Source of the DNA: Cytophagales bacterium
GTDB taxonomy: Bacteria; Bacteroidota; Bacteroidia; Cytophagales; VRUD01
Assembly (NCBI GenBank): GCA_019456305.1
Contig: VRUD01000030.1
Coordinates: forward strand, 1-46,162
Length of the DNA: 46,162 nt
Direction of reading: 5' to 3'
Positions within the stretch are counted from its first letter, which is position 1. The number at the start of each line of letters is the position of its first letter. The notes beneath the pieces were generated by a model, which searched no databases, was not told the origin of the DNA, and worked only from the letters and a program-made list of their open reading frames with translations. Both the position numbers and the translations under genes were made by a program. Below are positions 5,597 to 44,043 of this stretch, in pieces.

Positions 5597-7135
5597 TCAT
5601 CCCCTCGTCATTCGTACTTCGTCATTCGTAATTTGAAAGATCTTTTCGGCTGCTCCGGTATTTTTCAGAACGTAATTGCGTGCAATAGATGCCTTATTAG
5701 CTCTGAGCTCATCGTTTTCGTAGTTGGCCTTAAACTGCTTTTCAAACTCCTTTGTATTTTTTATTGAAAATGCTGCTCCTGACGCAACCAGGTCAACAGC
5801 TTCATGAAATTTTTTATAATTGGGACCAAAAAATATGGGCATCCCGAAAGTGGCTGCCTCCAGGATATTGTGCAGACCTAACCCAAAAGCGCCCCCTATG
5901 TAGGCAAAATCGGCATATTGATAAAGCGAAGATAACATACCAATATTGTCTATTATCAATACTTTATATTTTGCTGCATTTTGTTTGTTTAACATTGAAT
6001 AGCGTATGCAATCAGCTGTTTCTTTCCTAAAATGTTTTTTTTGAGTTTTTTCCTGAACTTTTAATATTTGTTTACGTATATTTGCGGTGAAGTCTTTTGT
6101 GGTTTCCACACTTGGGGAATTGAACCCCTCTGTTGGCTGGAGCCACTTTAGGCTTCTTTTTTTGTTATTGAATCCTTTATTAATTTTATGTAGAATATCT
6201 TCTTCACTCACTTTATGGAATAAACGAGACTGTAGTTTTTCTATCTCATTTTCACCTATCTCATGCGGAGCAATTACAATTTTAAGTTGTTTGTTAAAAT
6301 TATTAATAAAAGGAATCAGTATTTTCATATCCTCAGGCCAACTACTTCCAATAATAAGCAGCTTTTCACCAGCTTTAAATTGCTCAACTATGGGTATCTC
6401 TTTTTTATTATCGCAAATCGTTTTCACCCTGTCAAACCGGGTATCACCTGCTATGGTTAGGTTATTTATTCCAATATTTTTTAACAGATCATAAGAAATT
6501 TGGTCTTGCACAAAAATGTACTGAAAAAAGGAGAGCATTTTCCTGTAAAATCCGCCATGAGGCTTAAAAAATAATTGATTGGTTCTGAATATTGCGGAAA
6601 ATAAAATGACCGGAATATTGTTTTTCTTTAAAGTATTGAGGTAGTGATACCAGAATTCATATTTAACAAAGAATACAATTTTGGGCTGAACTATTTCTAC
6701 GAATCTCTCTGCATTTTTTTTGCTGTCTATGGGTAAATAGAAAACAAAATCTGCCAATTCATAGTCTTTCCTGACTTCATATCCGGAAGGGGAAAAAAAA
6801 GTTAGTAAAATTTTCCATTTCCCATCTTCCCACCCTTTCGGGTGGTCACCCGTTAGGGGTGACATTTTCCATTTTTCAATAACTGGCCTTGCCTGCTCAA
6901 ACTCTCCCAGGGACGCGCAATGAAACCAGGCTATTGGGGAATTATTATCTTTCAATGTCAGCTTGATCTGATCAAAAATCCCTTTCCTTCCTATAATCCA
7001 TTTTTTTGCTTTGGGATTGAAAGATGAAGCTATTATGATTGCTAAATGATAAAGCCTGATACTAATATTATAGAAAAATAGTGACAATTGAGAGATGAAG
7101 CGTAAGCTTTTTTTACTAACATAAAGATGACTCAT
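5597..7135 (-). CDS. waaA: 3-deoxy-D-manno-octulosonic acid (Kdo) transferase
   Basis: WaaA attaches Kdo to lipid A at the inner membrane. The N-terminal half contains the membrane anchor (residues 15-38) and the WFHCASLGEFEQARPVIE motif; the C-terminal half contains YIGGAFGLGLHNILEAATFGMPIFFGP, the glycosyltransferase signature. At 512 residues it exceeds the usual 400-430. One insert is MSPLTGDHPKGWEDG, encoded by two adjacent hairpins (CACCCTTTCGGGTG at 6831 and GTCACCC...GGGGTGAC at 6845-6862). A second long excess lies around residues 325-395. The last residues (NDEVRMTRG) are encoded by the AATGACGAA heptamer repeat next to the inverted-repeat element, so the C-terminus has been replaced or extended by repeat DNA. 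Confidence 0.92.
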   Translation of the reverse strand: MSHLYVSKKSLRFISQLSLFFYNISIRLYHLAIIIASSFNPKAKKWIIGRKGIFDQIKLTLKDNNSPIAWFHCASLGEFEQARPVIEKWKMSPLTGDHPKGWEDGKWKILLTFFSPSGYEVRKDYELADFVFYLPIDSKKNAERFVEIVQPKIVFFVKYEFWYHYLNTLKKNNIPVILFSAIFRTNQLFFKPHGGFYRKMLSFFQYIFVQDQISYDLLKNIGINNLTIAGDTRFDRVKTICDNKKEIPIVEQFKAGEKLLIIGSSWPEDMKILIPFINNFNKQLKIVIAPHEIGENEIEKLQSRLFHKVSEEDILHKINKGFNNKKRSLKWLQPTEGFNSPSVETTKDFTANIRKQILKVQEKTQKKHFRKETADCIRYSMLNKQNAAKYKVLIIDNIGMLSSLYQYADFAYIGGAFGLGLHNILEAATFGMPIFFGPNYKKFHEAVDLVASGAAFSIKNTKEFEKQFKANYENDELRANKASIARNYVLKNTGAAEKIFQITNDEVRMTRG

Positions 7136-34461: not shown

Positions 34462-34540
34462 AAATAAGGGTTATTTCAATAGTAATTCAATAGTAATTTG
34501 ATGGTCATACAATAGCTATACAATCGTATAACAATCATAT

Positions 34541-34670
34541 GATAACGATTTGGATAAAGGCAGTGGGGTTTAGGTTACGAAACTGTCTCCCGTTACGAGA
34601 TTTTCAATGGGAATTGAGAGTCTCTTTTCGAGACGGTCAGCCCCATTGCCTTTATGTTTTGTTGGGCATA
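34541..34670 (-). other. attC-like recombination site (site C)
   Basis: On the minus strand it reads TATGCCCAAC at one edge and GTTATCATATG at the other. Between them ATAAAGGCAGTGGGG (34554-34568) pairs with CCCCATTGCCTTTAT (34641-34655), with a further inner hairpin (ACTGTCTC/GAGACGGT). It ends the MORN-protein unit. The TATGCCCAAC arm is complementary, with one mismatch, to that unit's 5' edge GTTGTGCATA at 36323-36332. Confidence 0.75.
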
Positions 34671-34677
34671 GTGCTTT

Positions 34678-36315
34678 TCATTGTTTAATTATTTCTTTGA
34701 TGCTAACCATACCTTCCTCTTTTTCCTTGTAAATGATGTGGTGCTTCACTACCGTGTCGTCATCTTTTAATTCAAGGTCCCAATGGTCAGGCATATAATC
34801 TCCTGTCTCTGCTTCAATGAAGCCTTTATACAAGATAGAACCATCCTTATTCCAGCAAGCCAGTTCAGTTCCTGTTGCTTTCCATATACAGGCTTTCATC
34901 ATCTGTCCATTCTTCCACCAATAGCTTTCAGATAATAATCCCTCCTTACTCCTCACTTTTTTACTTCGTAAACTCCCGCTGGAGTACCATTCCCTGGTTG
35001 CATCCTTACCATGTTCCTTGCTTTTTATCCCATTGGGATGCCATTCAGTATAAGGTTTTCCTTTAACGTTACGCAGCTTCATTTGGCCGTTCTTGTACCA
35101 TTGGAATTGTCCTGCGTCTGATCTTTCCCAGAGCTTTTTACCTGAGGGATACCATTCTGTTTCGATGCCATTGCCATGCTCTTTTATCTTTTGTCCGGTT
35201 TTATCAAAGGTGGTATATACATACGTGTTCTGTTGATAATCATTTACACTTTGAATTTCTCCGGTTTCGTAGTAGTGAATCTCTTTCAGTACCTTCTTTT
35301 TGCCTTTGACATAAGCAACCGATCTTGGACCTCCTGAAGAGAAATAAGTCCTTAGTGTGTCCAACACATTGGCCAGGGAATCCAGCCTGTGCTGTTCCGT
35401 TGCTTTGCGGGTGCTGTCTGCACGTTGCTTTTCGGCCAGCAAGTTTGCTTTTTGCATTTCGTATGCCAGCATCATGGAGTCTGCGTCAATTTGCAGGCGA
35501 GCAGGGGTGGGAGTAGCGGCAAGATGAATTACCAGGTCATTTAAGCAAGTCCACCTCATTTTGCGCGAACTGATCTGCTCTATGGTGCAATCAAACAAAG
35601 GAATATTCTCAAGGATAAAAAGCAGTTTACCTTCCACCTGCCATGCACCCACTATTATGCGGGCAGTATCGCTGGCCGGCTGCATAAGCACCACTCCATT
35701 TTTCTTAAACAGGTATTTGCCTCCCTTATATATGCTGTTCCAATCAATAGGCCCGCCCATTTCCTCCGGATCAATTTCAGGCTCCGACAATGCTGCATAT
35801 TCAATCTCCCAAAGGGTATCGCACAGCATATCCTCTGGGCTCATTAGCGCCTCTTTTAGTAATACTTCTGCTTCTTTCGGGGGTAGATAACGCCCATCAT
35901 ATTTTACCAACTTCCCTGCACTCAGCTTTTCATAGGTAGTATAATCAGGCAATTCAGTTCCCTCTTTGTCCCAGTAGCGCCAGCCATCCATTTTCACACT
36001 GGTGCGATATATTCTTATTAACGGGTTTTTAGGAGGTGGGTATATTCTCGTTTGTATTTTGTCCCGGCCAATCCGTACTTTTAGTGCTATCCTGTAGTCG
36101 CCTGATGCCCCTTTTTTTCCGTTCTCATAGTAGTCTGTTCTTTTCCCTTTTTTCAGGAATGGCCTTCCTTTTTTGTATTTGTAATTAGCCAGCGACATCA
36201 TAGAGCCGTCATTATATCTCGTCAGATGGTTGAAGCTTTCTCCATTCACAACCGTGTCTTGCTGTGCTGCGGTTAGTAAGGGAAACAGTAATAATATGGC
36301 TGTCAGTTCTCTCAT
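34678..36315 (-). CDS. Secreted MORN-2 repeat protein (YwqK-like) with lipocalin-like middle
   Basis: A 545-residue exported protein (signal peptide RELTAILLLFPLLTAA). The N-terminal and C-terminal parts carry MORN-2/YwqK repeats: YENGKKGASGDY, YYETGEIQSVNDYQQ, TEWYPSGKKLWERS, WYKNGQMKLRNVKGKPYTEWHPNGIKSKEHG. The middle (LCDTLWEIEYAAL... GAWQVEGKLLFILENIPLFDCTIEQISS) is lipocalin-like. These proteins are often found near toxins or effectors and the function is unclear. The gene fills one unit of the putative cassette array (about 34547-36331) by itself. Confidence 0.7.
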   Translation of the reverse strand: MRELTAILLLFPLLTAAQQDTVVNGESFNHLTRYNDGSMMSLANYKYKKGRPFLKKGKRTDYYENGKKGASGDYRIALKVRIGRDKIQTRIYPPPKNPLIRIYRTSVKMDGWRYWDKEGTELPDYTTYEKLSAGKLVKYDGRYLPPKEAEVLLKEALMSPEDMLCDTLWEIEYAALSEPEIDPEEMGGPIDWNSIYKGGKYLFKKNGVVLMQPASDTARIIVGAWQVEGKLLFILENIPLFDCTIEQISSRKMRWTCLNDLVIHLAATPTPARLQIDADSMMLAYEMQKANLLAEKQRADSTRKATEQHRLDSLANVLDTLRTYFSSGGPRSVAYVKGKKKVLKEIHYYETGEIQSVNDYQQNTYVYTTFDKTGQKIKEHGNGIETEWYPSGKKLWERSDAGQFQWYKNGQMKLRNVKGKPYTEWHPNGIKSKEHGKDATREWYSSGSLRSKKVRSKEGLLSESYWWKNGQMMKACIWKATGTELACWNKDGSILYKGFIEAETGDYMPDHWDLELKDDDTVVKHHIIYKEKEEGMVSIKEIIKQ

Positions 36316-36322
36316 TTTGCAT

Positions 36323-36395
36323 TATGCACAACGTTTAGTATATGAAGCGTAGCATCCCGAAGGATGCTATGATTTCATATACATTGTTACCATGC
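36323..36395 (-). other. attC-like recombination site (site B)
   Basis: The minus strand has GCATGGTAAC at its 5' edge and GTTGTGCATA at its 3' edge. TATATGAA/TTCATATA and GTAGCATCC/GGATGCTA form a nested stem of a 70-bp hairpin. It lies between the EcoRI-like gene and the MORN gene. GCATGGTAAC is exactly complementary to GTTACCATGC, the 5' edge of the restriction-modification unit at site A. Confidence 0.8.
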
Positions 36396-36418
36396 GTTTC
36401 TTTTTAATTTTTAACTCC

Positions 36419-37228
36419 TTATGTCGTTATGAAATTCATTACTCTTAATGAAGTCTTAGCAATATCAATCATAATTGGAAGCATTTCTTCAGTTGTTGTC
36501 CACGGAGTGGCTTTAGTATAAATTGAAACAGCTTGCAGCATTATTTTTTGACCGTCTATAGAAATAAAAATATTTTCACATCTATTTTGATTAATGGGCA
36601 AACTATAATTTGCGGCAGTTAATCTATCAATTCTGTTTAAAGATCCAACATCGTGTCTCAATTCTACCTCTCTTCCATCAGGTCTTTTTACTGTTATAGA
36701 TTCAGTGAGAAAATTCGAACCTTGTAAAAAAAGGATATAAGGAAAGTGTTTCTCATTCATCATAATGTTCCTTATTTCATTGATATTTTTGTGAGAACGT
36801 TCAATAGCATTTCCTGCAACCATTATGTCCTGATCTTTATTTTTCCCCACCAATATACCTTCCTGTATATTGTCTATATCCTTGCCTTGATGCTTCGCTT
36901 CGGAGACCAAGATAATTCTCCAATTCTCATCTTTATCTTTAACTTCTATTATTCCACCATCAGGCTTTATAGCTGCTTTTTCTACAAATATTGTTACGCC
37001 TAACCGAGAATCAGTTTCATTAAGTTTTTCGTTTATTTCTTTTTTTGCAATAAACTCCCTATAACGGAATTCTAAGTCAGTAAATTCTTTTTTTAAAGAT
37101 TCAAATGCACTTTTTGAAATATCTTTTACGGACAAATCATGGTCTTGTGCTGATTTTCCAAAAATCCCTTTAGGTCCTTCAATTTTCTCTTGTTGCTTAC
37201 TTAATCTATCTGTTTGTTTCTTTTTCAA
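36419..37228 (-). CDS. EcoRI/RsrI-family type II restriction endonuclease
   Basis: A 269-residue homologue of R.EcoRI, recognised along its length. The PD...ExK site is intact: KPDGGI with Asp90, then SEAKHQGKD with Glu110 and Lys112, one residue offset from EcoRI D91, E111, K113. The recognition segment AGNAIERSHKNINE keeps the EcoRI N141 and R145 equivalents (N140, R144), and NRIDRLTAANY keeps R200/R203 equivalents. This predicts cutting at GAATTC. The gene overlaps the methylase gene by 4 bases (ATGA). The pair occupies one putative integron cassette. Confidence 0.95.
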   Translation of the reverse strand: MKKKQTDRLSKQQEKIEGPKGIFGKSAQDHDLSVKDISKSAFESLKKEFTDLEFRYREFIAKKEINEKLNETDSRLGVTIFVEKAAIKPDGGIIEVKDKDENWRIILVSEAKHQGKDIDNIQEGILVGKNKDQDIMVAGNAIERSHKNINEIRNIMMNEKHFPYILFLQGSNFLTESITVKRPDGREVELRHDVGSLNRIDRLTAANYSLPINQNRCENIFISIDGQKIMLQAVSIYTKATPWTTTEEMLPIMIDIAKTSLRVMNFITT

Positions 37229-38193
37229 TGTGATTCTTTAACTTCTAATGATTCTTGTTTTGTCAATCTTTTGATTGCTTGATCAACAGTTAAATTCTTT
37301 TCTATTGAATATGGCTTGATAAACATATTTTCATTAATTTGAGAAAGATGTAAATCTAAATATTCATATAGCTTAGAATCAGTATCTACAAGAATAGAGT
37401 TTCTCGCTTCTTCAATTGCAACACGACCTGTTGTTCCTGAACCAGCAAAGAAATCTAAGACAGTTGATCCTGGATATGACAAACTACGAATGAATCTACG
37501 AATAATCTCAACCGGCTTTTGAGTAGGGTGCCCAACTCGCTCCTTAGAATTTCCGTTTAATCTATTGATTTCCCATACGTTTGTTGGGTTTTTCCCTTTT
37601 TCGATAGTTTCTGGATTCAATCTTTTATCTTTTCTATAAAGCTCTTTTGTCTTTTCATCATATGGGATTCTTACAGAATCTAATTCAAAATAGTACTTCT
37701 TAGTTTTGGATAACCAAATGGCTTCTTCATGTCTATTTGCAAAAAAACGATGAGCACTCATACCGTTTTTATAATACCAAATTACCAAATTGATAAAGCG
37801 TAATTTGGTAGAATGTCTTGTGTAATGTAATATTTCAAGTAAATCACCTTTCTTTAGGTCTTGAAATTGGAATCCACCAAAAATTACACAATTTCCTGAA
37901 TCAGATAATATCCTATAAATCTGATCCAACCAATCTTTTGCCCATTCCAGATAGTTTTCGTAAGTATCCCAATAATCTAAATCCAGATTATATGGAGGAT
38001 CGATTAATATAAGTTGAATCGAAGAGTCAGGAATTTGCCTTAGCACTTCAACTGCATCCTTAATGAAAATAGTATGCATAGTGCTTTCCACTTCTTGACG
38101 TGTTACATCTATTGTAGAACTGTGTCGCACCCCATTTTTCCTTTGTCGGTTGATCGCGATATGACCTTTATTAAAGTGAGATTTATTTGGCAT
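37225..38193 (-). CDS. DNA methyltransferase of the M.RsrI type
   Basis: A 322-residue beta-class N6-adenine methyltransferase. The DPPYNL motif (IV) is at residues 65-70 and the SAM-binding DFFAGSGTTGRVAIEEARNSI motif (I) lies near the C-terminus, giving the beta order. NGMSAHRFFANRHEE and NPTNVWEINRLNGNSKERVGHPTQKP match M.RsrI closely. M.RsrI protects GAATTC, so this enzyme should protect the host from the partner endonuclease. The endonuclease gene follows with a 4-base overlap; the methylase is translated first. Confidence 0.95.
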   Translation of the reverse strand: MPNKSHFNKGHIAINRQRKNGVRHSSTIDVTRQEVESTMHTIFIKDAVEVLRQIPDSSIQLILIDPPYNLDLDYWDTYENYLEWAKDWLDQIYRILSDSGNCVIFGGFQFQDLKKGDLLEILHYTRHSTKLRFINLVIWYYKNGMSAHRFFANRHEEAIWLSKTKKYYFELDSVRIPYDEKTKELYRKDKRLNPETIEKGKNPTNVWEINRLNGNSKERVGHPTQKPVEIIRRFIRSLSYPGSTVLDFFAGSGTTGRVAIEEARNSILVDTDSKLYEYLDLHLSQINENMFIKPYSIEKNLTVDQAIKRLTKQESLEVKESH

Positions 38194-38245
38194 CTTTTGA
38201 ATTTTGGCTAAGGTCTAACATTTTTTTGATTTATTATTTAATAAT

Positions 38246-38305
38246 GCATGGTAACGTGTTTGGCTAAACTGCGTTTCAATGCAGTTTAGGTATTGTTGGG
38301 CTTAG
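38246..38305 (-). other. attC-like recombination site (site A)
   Basis: On the minus strand CTAAGCCCAAC marks one edge and GTTACCATGC the other. The stem is GCAGTTTAG/CTAAACTGC, 9 bp, perfect, with an 8-base loop. The AAGCCCAAC edge is complementary to the 5' edge (GTTGGGCTTA, site D) of the preceding unit. Length is about 60 bp, a usual size for attC. Confidence 0.82.
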
Positions 38306-38308
38306 TTC

Positions 38309-39106
38309 TTAATTAGTTGTAAAATTCAATGTTCTTGCACAGGCAGGGTTAGGGCACAAAACGGACGTGTAACCTGTCAACTTCCTTTTATCAATTTCTA
38401 TTTTTGTTGTGCAAAATGGACAATTCCCAGAAACCAAATTAGGATTTCCTCCAAAAATCAAGGTGCCTCCAGCGCCAAAACCAACACTATTGCCTTGTAC
38501 AGAAATATCACCTTGCGTTGTAATTCCATCCATTCCAACACTTCCTTCTGAACTAGAGAATTTTGTCTTGTCAATGAAGTTCTTACTTCCGTCTTTGGCG
38601 TGCAGATGAGTCTTCTTAGCTTTTATCTCAGTATTCTCGACAACATTTGTGCTATTGTTCTTTGCTATTATAGCTGCGAAATCAGCTTCAACAAACGAAT
38701 TCAGTACTTCTTGATAGCTCCAATCCTCAGTTTCCATTATCCATTCAGTTCCATCGTCTGTGTTCAAGTCTTCGATAATTTCAGCAACTAATTTTTCTAC
38801 TTGCTCATTTAAAGCTTTATTGTAGTTAATGGTTCCTCCAATCTCTTGTAGTTTTTCAATTTCATCGTCTATTGAAGCAATTTTATCGTTTGTAGAATTA
38901 ATCTCAGTCCAGATATCATCTAGTCTTATTTTGAGGGCTTCATTGGACGAGATTCGGTCAATTATCTGATTGACTTGCTGAAATCCAGGTATTGGTATAA
39001 AGCTTAACCAAAAGGACGTATAACTCACATCATCTTGCAAGTGTTCATTTTTAAGGTGAATTTTAACTGTCTGAAGTAATTCCTTTGCTTTTTCTGCTAT
39101 GTTCAT
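38309..39106 (-). CDS. Coiled-coil / zinc-ribbon protein of unknown function
   Basis: A 265-residue soluble protein. Residues 1-130 are helical and coiled-coil (IWTEINSTNDKIASIDDEIEKLQEIGGTINYNKALNEQVEKLVAEI). A loop of charged residues then links to a beta-rich segment (GITTQGDISVQGNSVGFGAGGTLIFGG) and a C-terminal zinc ribbon CPFCTTKI...CPNPACARTL (four cysteines). I do not recognise a family. It is the sole gene of its unit in the putative cassette array and lies next to the ParDE pair. Confidence 0.6.
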   Translation of the reverse strand: MNIAEKAKELLQTVKIHLKNEHLQDDVSYTSFWLSFIPIPGFQQVNQIIDRISSNEALKIRLDDIWTEINSTNDKIASIDDEIEKLQEIGGTINYNKALNEQVEKLVAEIIEDLNTDDGTEWIMETEDWSYQEVLNSFVEADFAAIIAKNNSTNVVENTEIKAKKTHLHAKDGSKNFIDKTKFSSSEGSVGMDGITTQGDISVQGNSVGFGAGGTLIFGGNPNLVSGNCPFCTTKIEIDKRKLTGYTSVLCPNPACARTLNFTTN

Positions 39107-39132
39107 ATGGAGTGTTTTGGTTGTCTAATTAA

Positions 39133-39264
39133 GCCCAACGGTTTGAATATGGTGCGTTTGGCATTTCAAAGCTCACATCTTTCAGTTTATTACTATGTTT
39201 ATTCATTGCTATCATTTTCCATTTTAGCACTATCTGCCAAATGCACTATATTTTTTGTTATGTG
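39133..39264 (-). other. attC-like recombination site (site D)
   Basis: On the minus strand it runs from CACATAAC at 39264-39257 to GTTGGGCTTAATTAG ending near 39125. The outer stem pairs GTGC(A)TTTGGCA with TGCCAAACGCAC (11 of 12), with a central region of about 60 bases that is only partly paired. The 132-bp length resembles the long attC sites of Vibrio arrays. It begins 3 bases after the parE stop codon. Confidence 0.7.
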
Positions 39265-39267
39265 GGG

Positions 39268-39567
39268 TTATTCTGTTATTCTATGTTTTAAATCCATTTG
39301 CTCGTGCAATATTCTTATTATTTCAATTTCATTCTTATTTAACTTTCTGTAAAAAATAATATGTCGCCCAGTTCTATAACCAAATAATTTGTCTGCAATT
39401 CCGTCATAATTTTTACCAATATTTGGCTTTTCTGCAATTCCCTTACAGTTATCGAGTAACATTTGATAGTATTTGTCAGCTTGTTGTTCAGACCAGTTAT
39501 CAAAGGTATAATTCCAAATTTTGGATAAATCTTCTACGGCTTTATTAGTCAAAAAGTAATTAGCCAT
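39268..39567 (-). CDS. parE: ParE-family toxin
   Basis: A 99-residue RelE/ParE-fold protein: YFLTNKAVEDLSKIWNYTFDNWSEQQADKYYQML, then NIGKNYDGIADKLFGYRTGRHIIFYRKLNKNEIEIIRILHEQMDLKHRI. ParE toxins poison DNA gyrase. It overlaps parD by 8 bases, with antitoxin first. Its stop codon is 3 bases from attC-like site D, typical of cassette-borne toxin-antitoxin genes. Confidence 0.93.
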   Translation of the reverse strand: MANYFLTNKAVEDLSKIWNYTFDNWSEQQADKYYQMLLDNCKGIAEKPNIGKNYDGIADKLFGYRTGRHIIFYRKLNKNEIEIIRILHEQMDLKHRITE

Positions 39568-39811
39568 TCTGATCTTTTTTTGCTTTTAATTCTTTCAGAT
39601 GTGTTTTTGGATTGAAGTCAAGAGCTAATCCGCTTTCAACACCTTCTTGAATTGCATTTTTTAAAGCAATAATCTTATTTTCTTCTTCTTCCAAAAGCCG
39701 CAGTCCTGCTCGTATTACTTCACTTGCATTTTTATATCTTCCAGTAATCAAGCTACTCTGAACAAACTTATCAAAGTAATTCCCTAATGATATTGACGTA
39801 TTTCTATTCAT
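39560..39811 (-). CDS. parD: ParD-family antitoxin
   Basis: An 83-residue ribbon-helix-helix antitoxin: NTSISLGNYFDKFVQSSLITGRYKNASEVIRAGLRLLEEEE, the classic ParD N-terminus, followed by a polar tail that binds ParE. It is co-transcribed with parE. The upstream 39,812-39,978 spacer holds imperfect GAATTACAACT-type tandem repeats and no recognised cassette edge. Confidence 0.93.
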   Translation of the reverse strand: MNRNTSISLGNYFDKFVQSSLITGRYKNASEVIRAGLRLLEEEENKIIALKNAIQEGVESGLALDFNPKTHLKELKAKKDQNG

Positions 39812-39978
39812 TTTAAATATTTTTTTTTATTTTTCAAAGATACCAAATATTGGTACAATAGTCAAATCTTTTCCTTTTTTTTATCACTAACATTGATCAT
39901 TACGGCAACCGTATGGCAACTGAATTGCAAGGAGTTACAACTGAGTTACAACTGAATTACAACTGAATTACTATTGAA

Positions 39979-42900
39979 TTATACGTCATAATTCAAATTA
40001 GGCGAAAGCCATTTCTCTGTTTCTTTCAGGTCCATTTCCTTTCGTTTGGCATAGTCTTCAATCTGGTCTTTACCGATCTTTCCCAGGCCAAAGTATTTGG
40101 ATTGAGGATGGGCAAAATAGATGCCGCATACCGAAGCAGCAGGGTACATTGCAAGGTTCTCGGTTAAGGTAATACCTGTGTTTTTTTCTACTTCTAAAAG
40201 ATCAAATAATGTTCTTTTTTCAGTATGATCGGGACAGGCGGGATAGCCTGGCGCCGGACGAATACCGGCATATTTTTCATGGATCAGTTCTTCACTGGTA
40301 AAATTTTCATCTTTAGCATAACCCCAGAACTCTTTACGTACACGCTGGTGCAGCAATTCAGTAAATGCTTCAGCTAACCTGTCTGCCAGCGCTTTTATCA
40401 TAATGCTGCTGTAATCATCAAGGTCTGCTTCAAATTTCTTAATCATCTTTTCTATTTCAATGCCAGTTGTAACGGCAAAGAAGCCGATGTAATCCCCGCC
40501 ACTATTCCTTGCTATAAAATCTGCTAAAGCAAGGTTAGGCACTCCGGGAGCTTTTTGTCCTTGCTGCCTTAATGTATGAATTACGGCTTTAACCTTTTCT
40601 CTGCTTTCATCTTCATAGACAGTGATGTCATCATCACTCGTAGCATTGGCCGGATAAATACCTATTGAGGCATTTGCGGTAAGAAGGCGTTTATCAATCA
40701 CTTCCTGCAATAATTTTAGAGCATCATTAAGTAGTTTTTGTGCTTCTTTACCCATTTTAGGGTCATCAAGCAATTTCGGAAATTTACCCTTTAGCTCCCA
40801 GGCCTGGAAAAAGGGCGTCCAGTCAATGAAATTGCTTATTTCTTTGAGTGAATAATTTACAAAAAATTTATTTCCAATAAATGATGGTTTGGTAATTTTT
40901 GTGGTTTTCCAGTCAATATTAAATTTATTAGCCCGCGCCTTTGTAATGCTCAGAAGTTGCTTATCCTTTTGGCGGGATAAATGATCGATCCGGAGTTTTT
41001 CATATTCTGTTTTTATATCGTTGCAAAATACTGCTTTGTTCTTTTCATTCACAAGTTTACTGGCAACTCCGACACTGATGGAAGCGTTTAAAACGTGAAT
41101 AACAGAACCATTGTAGTTAGGTTCAATTTTTACAGCAGTATGTATGCGTGAAGTAGTAGCTCCACCAATTAGTAACGGAAGATCGAAGTTCAACCGCTTC
41201 ATTTCTTTGGCAACGTGCACCATTTCATCTAATGAAGGCGTAATTAAGCCGCTCAAACCAATGATATCTACATCATTCTCTTTTGCTGCTTGCAGAATTT
41301 TATCACTGGCAACCATCACCCCCAGGTCAATGATCTCATAATTATTACACCCTAATACAACTCCTACGATGTTTTTCCCTATATCATGTACGTCACCTTT
41401 TACTGTTGCCATTAATATTTTACCTGCGGCTTTGGGCTTGCCGCCATCTTGCTTTTCCTCTTCAATAAATGGTGTCAGGTGAGCTACTCCCTTTTTCATC
41501 ACCCTTGCACTTTTCACAACCTGGGGAAGGAACATTTTACCCGAACCAAAAAGATCGCCCACCACATTCATACCGTCCATCAAAGGCCCTTCTATAACGT
41601 GCAGGGGCCTGTCATATTTTTTTCTCGCCTCCTCAACATCTTCTACAATATAATCTGTAATACCTTCTACCAGGGCATGTTTGAGACGTTCCTCAACATT
41701 TTCTTTTCTCCAGCGCTCGTCCTTTACCTTTACAATACCATTGGATACTACATTTGCTGCGTATTCAACCAATTTCTCTGTAGCATTTTCACGTTTATTG
41801 AACAGCACATCTTCAACCTTACCAAGCAAATCTTTTGGAATGTTTTCATATACCTCTATCATTCCTGCATTCACTATTCCCATATCCATACCAGCCTGTA
41901 TCCCATGATAGAGAAATGCAGAATGCATTGCTTCCCGTACCGGGTTATTTCCCCGAAAGGAAAAAGATACATTGCTTACGCCCCCACTAACCATTGCGTA
42001 TGGTAAATTCTTTTTTATCCACCTGGCTGCTTCAAAATAATCTACTGCATTTTTATTGTGTTCGGGAAGACCGGTTGCAACCGGAAAGACATTAGGATCA
42101 AAAATGATGTCTTCAGGTGGAAAATTTAATTCTCCGGTAAGTATTTTATACGCCCGTTCACATATTTCTATCCTGCGTTGGATTGTATCTGCCTGGCCTT
42201 CTTCATCAAAAGCCATCACCACAACTGCTGCACCGTATTGCCTGATCTTTCTGGCATATTCTATAAACTTTTCTTTCCCTTCTTTGAGACTTATAGAGTT
42301 AACTATTGATTTTCCCTGCACACATTTAAGCCCGGCTTCAATCACCGACCATTTTGAAGAATCTACCATAATAGGGATCCTGGCAATATCAGGTTCTGAG
42401 GCAATAAGATTCAGAAATGTGGTCATTTCTGCTTCAGAATCAAGTAAACCTTCGTCCATATTTACATCAAGGATCTGGGCTCCGCCTTCAACCTGGTCTT
42501 TCGCTATTGCTATTGCTTTTTCATATTCCTTGGCTTTGATCAGCTTTGAAAATTTTTTTGAGCCGGTTATATTGGTTCTTTCACCAATGTTTATAAAGTT
42601 GCTTTCTGAAAAGATCGTTAACGGCTCTAAGCCGCTGTAATTTGGTTTTTTCTCTTTTTCCGGAACTTTCCTTGGGGAATATTTTTCTGCTAATACCGCT
42701 ATTTGTTTAATATGTTCAGGAGTAGTACCGCAACAGCCCCCAACAATATTTACAAAGCCACTTTTTAAGTAATCTTCAATAACAGATGCCATGCGTTCCG
42801 GAGTTTCATCGTACTCACCAAATTCATTAGGAAGCCCTGCATTGGGATGGACACTTACAAAAAATGGCGCTGTATCGGATAATGTTTCAAGGTAGGGCCG

Positions 42901-43800: not shown

Positions 43801-43952
43801 GGAATTATCCAACGGGATAAATTCGTTATTCCCTGATGATTTGCTTATCAGAAAGAGAAGTATCGGTGATGGGGTAATCCCGGTTGAATAAAGGGGGAAA
43901 CCTTATCTTTTCCCGAACATAAATTTTATCGCTACAGCCACAAAATTTATAT

Positions 43953-44043
43953 GCAAGATGGGATTTAGCACCCTGACTTTAGGTATTTTTCAGGGTTGCT
44001 AAGACTTCAAAGGGCCCATTCCCTCCATCTTTCTCGATAAGTT
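43953..44043 (-). ncRNA. SAM-I (S-box) riboswitch upstream of metH
   Basis: On the minus strand the conserved core is present in order: CTTATCGAGAAAGATGG, GGGCCC, TGAAGTCTTAGCAACC, then TCAGGGTGCTAAATCCC and CATCTTGC, where AAGATGG pairs with CCATCTT as P1. GCAACC and GGTGCTAA are the SAM-binding internal loops. It is about 240 bases upstream of metH, fitting regulation by SAM. Confidence 0.9.

Follow-up and report, generated by a model that had tools for sequence, protein, structure and literature searches.

In classical integrons the integrase gene intI is usually divergent from the cassettes, and the boxes of the attC sites follow the consensus RYYYAAC / GTTRRRY; genomic non-attC sites that take cassettes are termed attG. 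Integron integrases act on the folded bottom strand of attC, according to the accessible text of PMC11023631, and in the accessible parts of PMC2426708 and PMC9176274 they are chosen by an additional domain. For Bacteroidetes beyond Chlorobi and Ignavibacteriae, the part of the IntegronFinder 2.0 paper available to us (PMC9024848) reports one complete integron, in Salinibacter. Otherwise, the literature searched, with subscription journals and preprints largely outside its scope and sources accessible in part, yielded no description of Bacteroidota integrons or of integron integrases without this domain (hereafter patch-less).

We analyzed a 46,162-nucleotide stretch of the genome of a Cytophagales bacterium (the window), in which four genes or gene pairs on the minus strand lie between metH and a DUF1571 gene, and after each of them comes a site in which RYYYAAC- and GTTRRRY-like boxes enclose a stem. 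The first cassette holds parD (39560-39811) and parE (39268-39567), together covering 39268-39811 and matched by Pfam ParD_antitoxin (6.6e-24) and ParE_toxin (2.1e-17), and ends in attC1 (131 nt, 39133-39263). It is followed by an 884-bp cassette (38255-39138, beginning with the T that follows the G|TT cut of attC1 and ending with the G in the attC2 R' box) carrying an orphan gene, an ORF of 265 codons from ATG to TAA (38309-39106, 265 aa), with attC2 (53 nt, 38249-38301) directly past the stop codon. The third cassette (36332-38254) encodes a methylase (37225-38193) and an EcoRI-family endonuclease (36419-37228; Pfam EcoRI, 6.3e-118), the pair spanning 36419-38193, and is closed by attC3 (67 nt, 36326-36392), while the fourth (34547-36331) encodes a 545-aa protein with a weak Pfam match to MORN_2 (34678-36315) and is closed by attC4 (128 nt, 34540-34667). 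All these features are on the minus strand. The first-pass annotation had described the orphan gene as a single-gene unit and a cassette of its own, placed between ParDE and a restriction-modification pair where defence or stability genes gather. Pfam matches on both sides bear out this placement, the unit does carry one gene, and the word cassette turns out to hold in its strict sense, with attC1 and attC2 bounding the gene.

Several other features of the window can be mentioned here. The endonuclease is 47-58.5% identical to plasmid EcoRI-family enzymes, and the window contains 9 GAATTC sites versus 17.6 expected from its pentamers. Degenerate 11-base repeats in inverted orientation, 89% complementary, flank the whole array (34472-34498 and 39895-39981); similar repeats follow a lone attC elsewhere in the host (L033), and they are possibly an insertion target. 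An ordinary SAM riboswitch lies upstream of metH (43944-44043, 58.2 bits), and the match of one window protein to PorZ is partial and under the cut-off.

All four sites, taken on the plus (bottom) strand, follow the same register, made of AACG-NTTTG or a near variant, a stem of 8-11 bp whose sequence is unlike from site to site, and TTGTT. In the alignment of the four sites (A4), 94.6% of cells are paired and 7/14 pairs carry double changes, compared with 33.9-44.6% paired in slid controls, the structure having been derived from the same four sites, which favours it. The bottom strand has the more stable fold of the two strands at 4/4 sites (-13.8/-12.7, -9.4/-7.8, -14.5/-13.6 and -20.4/-18.0 kcal/mol, bottom/top). 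A boundary rule was also observed: in 3/3 internal cassettes the cassette start, at the expected place, agrees at 12/14 positions with the reverse-complemented R'' of the same cassette. Of the window's 1513 GTT sites, 2, 3 and 4 reach at least 12/14, own site left out and expected one included. For the parDE cassette, the boundary search in the window recognized no upstream limit.

Two covariance models were used to search for further sites, R1 being built from the four window sites and R2 from 24 sites of a relative (G008) only; the two are not fully independent, as the G008 sites were picked with R1. When R2 was run on the window, its top four matches were exactly the four attC (E 1e-8 for attC2, 6e-8 for attC4, 9.5e-7 for attC3 and 2.8e-6 for attC1), and the next match had an E of 1.9. 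With their true long loops present, attC1 and attC4 score poorly with R1 (E 0.53 and 0.31). The window thus carries four attC in the same orientation and its contig no TIGR02249 match, as in a CALIN. We conclude that the orphan is very probably an integron gene cassette, a promoter-poor single gene with its own attC, in a four-attC CALIN beside metH. This cassette status explains why the gene is rare, single and located beside unrelated stability and restriction genes.

Sites of the same type are found elsewhere in the host genome. R1 gave 13 matches at E ≤ 1, eight of those outside the window reaching E ≤ 2.1e-4 on eight other contigs. Applied to the 13 host loci, R2 recovered nine sites at E ≤ 0.01, three in the window and six elsewhere (L032, L033, L034, L035, L039, L040); five loci (L037, L038, L041, L042, L043) were not confirmed as attC by R2 at this threshold. 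Whole single cassettes obeying the boundary rule (11/12 and 10/12 positions) were seen at 2/11 lone loci, with NUDIX-like and AHSA1-like genes, and none at the remaining 9/11. At L035:1559-2410 a lone attC lies six bases past a Fic/DOC-family gene. No intact integron integrase was seen in the host, which has no TIGR02249 match at E ≤ 1e-30. The weaker host matches were rejected as integron integrases: L009 is XerD (343.5 bits, over the cut-off), L007 is XerC-like (303.7 bits, under the XerC cut-off of 335) and the others are fragments. At least two host fragments have an SPLD/SPFD ending, one a 159-aa piece without the central part of the catalytic domain, the other a piece of 87 codons. Four truncated tyrosine-recombinase fragments lie on four host contigs (L003, L004, L006, L010) and possibly represent a graveyard of integrases.

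Within the order, 14/98 genomes (own included) match R1 at E ≤ 1e-3, and in G008 24 R1 matches lie on one strand over 42 kb. TIGR02249 was matched at E ≤ 1e-30 in 8/13 attC-bearing relatives, 2/14 relatives without an R1 match and 0/14 control genomes, its curated cut-off being passed by 0/28 genomes. Most integrase loci were covered on their downstream side only, and there R2 detected attC at 8/13 loci, for 137 matches (69 in G089, 34 in G008, 8 and 13 at the two G036 loci, 5 in G033, 3 each in G048 and G049, and 2 in G076). All 137 are on the expected strand, the integrase and the cassettes being codirectional. Seven further matches lie on another G089 contig, and 144/144 are strand-coherent within their region. 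No R2 match was found at the other 5/13 loci, namely a second G048 locus and two G003 loci (20 kb each) and the loci of G014 and G054, where little sequence is left, nor in 20 kb on the upstream side of one of the G036 integrases. Array cassettes in the relatives measure 0.5-3.7 kb. When the boundary rule (at least 12/14) was applied to G008, it held for 18/33 neighbouring pairs versus 4/1123 other pairs.

These observations bear on a more ordinary explanation, according to which the attC-like hairpins would be terminators or REP-like repeats in an unremarkable gene order. Intergenic hairpins are common, and attC2 also scores as terminator-like on the plus strand; however, the boundary rule, the register kept despite unlike stems and, downstream of integrases, the arrays of 34 and 69 sites that keep to one strand make this explanation very unlikely, and we retain the sites as attC.

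The integrases at the head of these arrays differ from IntI. Three of them score 194.5, 219.3 and 214.7 bits on TIGR02249, all below the cut-off of 265 that a canonical IntI passes and each in two separate stretches, whereas IntI1 of R751 scores 507.5 bits in one stretch. Aligned with IntI1 of R751, the same three do not have the IntI1 insert (I2 helix region) and thus lack the IntI-specific domain. The KDR and HxLRH motifs stand 58-62 residues apart in 11 of the 13 integrases and 82 apart in another, with a looser pattern, the last one having no single frame; the distance is 100 residues in IntI1, 62 in host XerC and 66 in host XerD. A 12-row tree that includes nine of the 13 integrases places the array-linked integrases with IntI1 and apart from Xer, a placement that is unsure because of the long branches. 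Among the plasmid matches of the G008 integrase, those listed first come from Rufibacter, Pontibacter and Persicobacter, and Acinetobacter plasmid recombinases are as similar. These plasmid matches, the Arenibacter relative of the orphan described below and the partial PorZ match suggest the assignment to Bacteroidota. One G036 array integrase (L070, G036:C1:300086-303598) has a long N-terminal extension and is directly followed by an ORF that, by eye, resembles a single-stranded DNA-binding protein.

Compared with Pfam, NCBIfam, PADLOC, PHROGs and PDB sequences, the orphan protein reaches no cut-off, in agreement with the earlier impression that it fits no known family. Its layout in predictions is as the first-pass annotation had described it, with long helices (about residues 3-114), a beta-rich segment (strands at about 143-228) and a terminal ribbon, C229-x2-C232 ... 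C251-x4-C256. Its fold is not established, both structure models being poor (mean pLDDT 39.7 and 50.5). The best sub-threshold match is Pfam Beta_helix (PF13229), over residues 141-228, at 20.1 bits for a cut-off of 25.9. The protein thus resembles Beta_helix and zinc-ribbon proteins through this weak match and its CxxC/CxxxxC ribbon, but the score lies under the gathering cut-off and the combination with a helical half matches nothing.

Arenibacter nanhaiticus provides the sole relative found in a collection of 84,980 species, with 70% identity over residues 121-265. This copy is truncated at its 5' end, and the preceding sequence reads, by eye, like an IS transposase fragment. Over the 137 aligned codons, which cover the C-terminal part of the orphan, its N-terminal half having no relative, pN is 0.152 and pS 0.870, with 26, 22 and 78 differences at codon positions 1, 2 and 3. 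As change is mostly synonymous, at least the C-terminal half of the orphan is a protein under purifying selection. C229, C232, C251 and C256 are invariant between the two sequences and would provide the four metal ligands of a zinc ribbon. The beta-rich segment and the predicted zinc ribbon are most likely the conserved working part, in what is most likely a cytosolic, oligomeric protein with a helical N-terminal part; no membrane-length hydrophobic segment was found in it (top 19-residue hydropathy 0.89).

Searches for other relatives were conducted at several levels. None was found in plasmids or phages by tblastn, nor in viral contigs. In whole-genome searches at E ≤ 1e-3, on samples that overlap, only the host's own genome matches (1/148 relatives, 1/395 genomes of the phylum, 1/390 of the order). 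Likewise, the known Arenibacter genome is the only one to match in its genus (1/18) and in its class (1/395, E ≤ 1e-6). In the family of Arenibacter, 64/397 genomes have a row at E ≤ 1, Arenibacter itself standing at 7e-98, and four other rows with E ≤ 1e-3 (6.1e-5 to 8.6e-4) concern partial stretches. These weak rows were not kept as homologues: L012 lacks a 60-aa ORF at the matching position, L021 was inspected as well, and the remaining ones were judged, unopened, to be chance or coiled-coil matches. Homologues lying mainly in housekeeping operons, which the first-pass annotation had named as evidence against its suggestion of a stability or anti-phage factor, were not encountered: the sole clear relative is the truncated Arenibacter copy, whose surroundings read like an accessory region. 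It is flanked by two similar structured-looking repeats (L002:2860-2990 and 5760-5870) that, by eye, resemble group II intron or IS remains. The site 3' of this copy was dropped as a proven attC, with fold z values of -1.2 and -0.8 and no R2 match there. That the orphan would be a housekeeping or envelope protein located here by chance is exceedingly unlikely given this distribution, with the host genome as sole match in 148, 395 and 390 genomes, and given the hydropathy maximum of 0.89.

Defence or another accessory function is possible for the orphan protein, as one option only. As an anti-phage factor, it could sense a phage product through the ribbon or the beta segment and act on the cell through its helical half. 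It shares the array with restriction-modification and toxin-antitoxin cassettes, and defence is well represented among integron cassettes: the accessible text of a review-type source (PMC12409362) counts at least 16/179 anti-phage cassettes in V. cholerae and 9/57 tested in V. parahaemolyticus. This documented enrichment sets a low prior for the orphan and is no proof. Moreover, the neighbours are shuffled units, each a separate cassette with its own attC, so that adjacency is weak evidence for a common function. The best PADLOC match, LmuB, is at chance level (E 0.063), phage, plasmid and viral-contig collections hold no relative, and one relative is known in all; we therefore regard an anti-phage role as rather unlikely. 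A factor stabilizing the array or replicon, by addiction or maintenance for instance, is suggested by the adjoining parDE and by the link between toxin-antitoxin cassettes and the stability of large integrons made in the accessible text of PMC11023631. It appears quite improbable, since the orphan gene stands alone in its cassette, without a partner, and matches no toxin or antitoxin, and a stabilizing role would fall to parDE itself.

Concerning expression, the orphan gene begins 32 bases past the cut in attC1 and itself lacks a strong promoter, which makes read-through from a promoter-like site upstream of parD plausible. This site (TTGACT-17-TATCTT, 39837-39865, minus strand) overlaps a palindrome (39841-39855) and is itself weak, with 10 such sites in the region versus 7.2 expected in shuffles.

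Taken together, these data suggest a scenario in which patch-less integrases would have moved cassettes through recombination of attC in its folded bottom-strand form, one of them having presumably placed cassettes at the window and elsewhere in the host chromosome. The lone cassettes away from arrays would fit integration at attG sites, and the host array would now be stuck unless an integrase comes from elsewhere. Our judgement is evenly balanced on the broader proposal that these elements form a widespread, overlooked class of Bacteroidota integrons, in which IntI-like integrases that never had or have lost the IntI-specific domain head, in the same direction, arrays that can reach dozens of cassettes (69 R2 matches in one region), the orphan being a new cassette-borne family with a possible role in defence. 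If this is true, recombination of attC hairpins would not need the IntI-specific domain, and what lets a Xer-like recombinase use a folded single-strand attC becomes directly testable. Surveys based on this domain would miss the Bacteroidota variant and, if patch-less integrases run arrays across a Bacteroidota order, a reservoir of genes for accessory and defence functions has been passed over.

Compared with known systems, the restriction-modification unit of the window differs from EcoRI/RsrI-type systems (we take RsrI to be a member of the EcoRI-type group to which the window endonuclease is likened) in being a gene cassette with an attC in a chromosomal array. The array itself resembles a CALIN in the IntegronFinder sense, defined by at least two tandem attC in the same orientation with no integrase nearby, four being present here; it differs in that the integrases linked to this attC type lack the IntI insert and in that lone attC occur on other contigs of the host as well. 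Finally, the arrays of the relatives share with a chromosomal integron driven by IntI a tyrosine integrase heading a cassette array, a folded attC and the SPLD-type C-terminal end of IntI1. They depart from it by integrases that score below the TIGR02249 cut-off, carry no insert between KDR and HxLRH and are codirectional with their cassettes, whereas in R751 intI1 is on the minus strand and the cassettes are on the plus strand.
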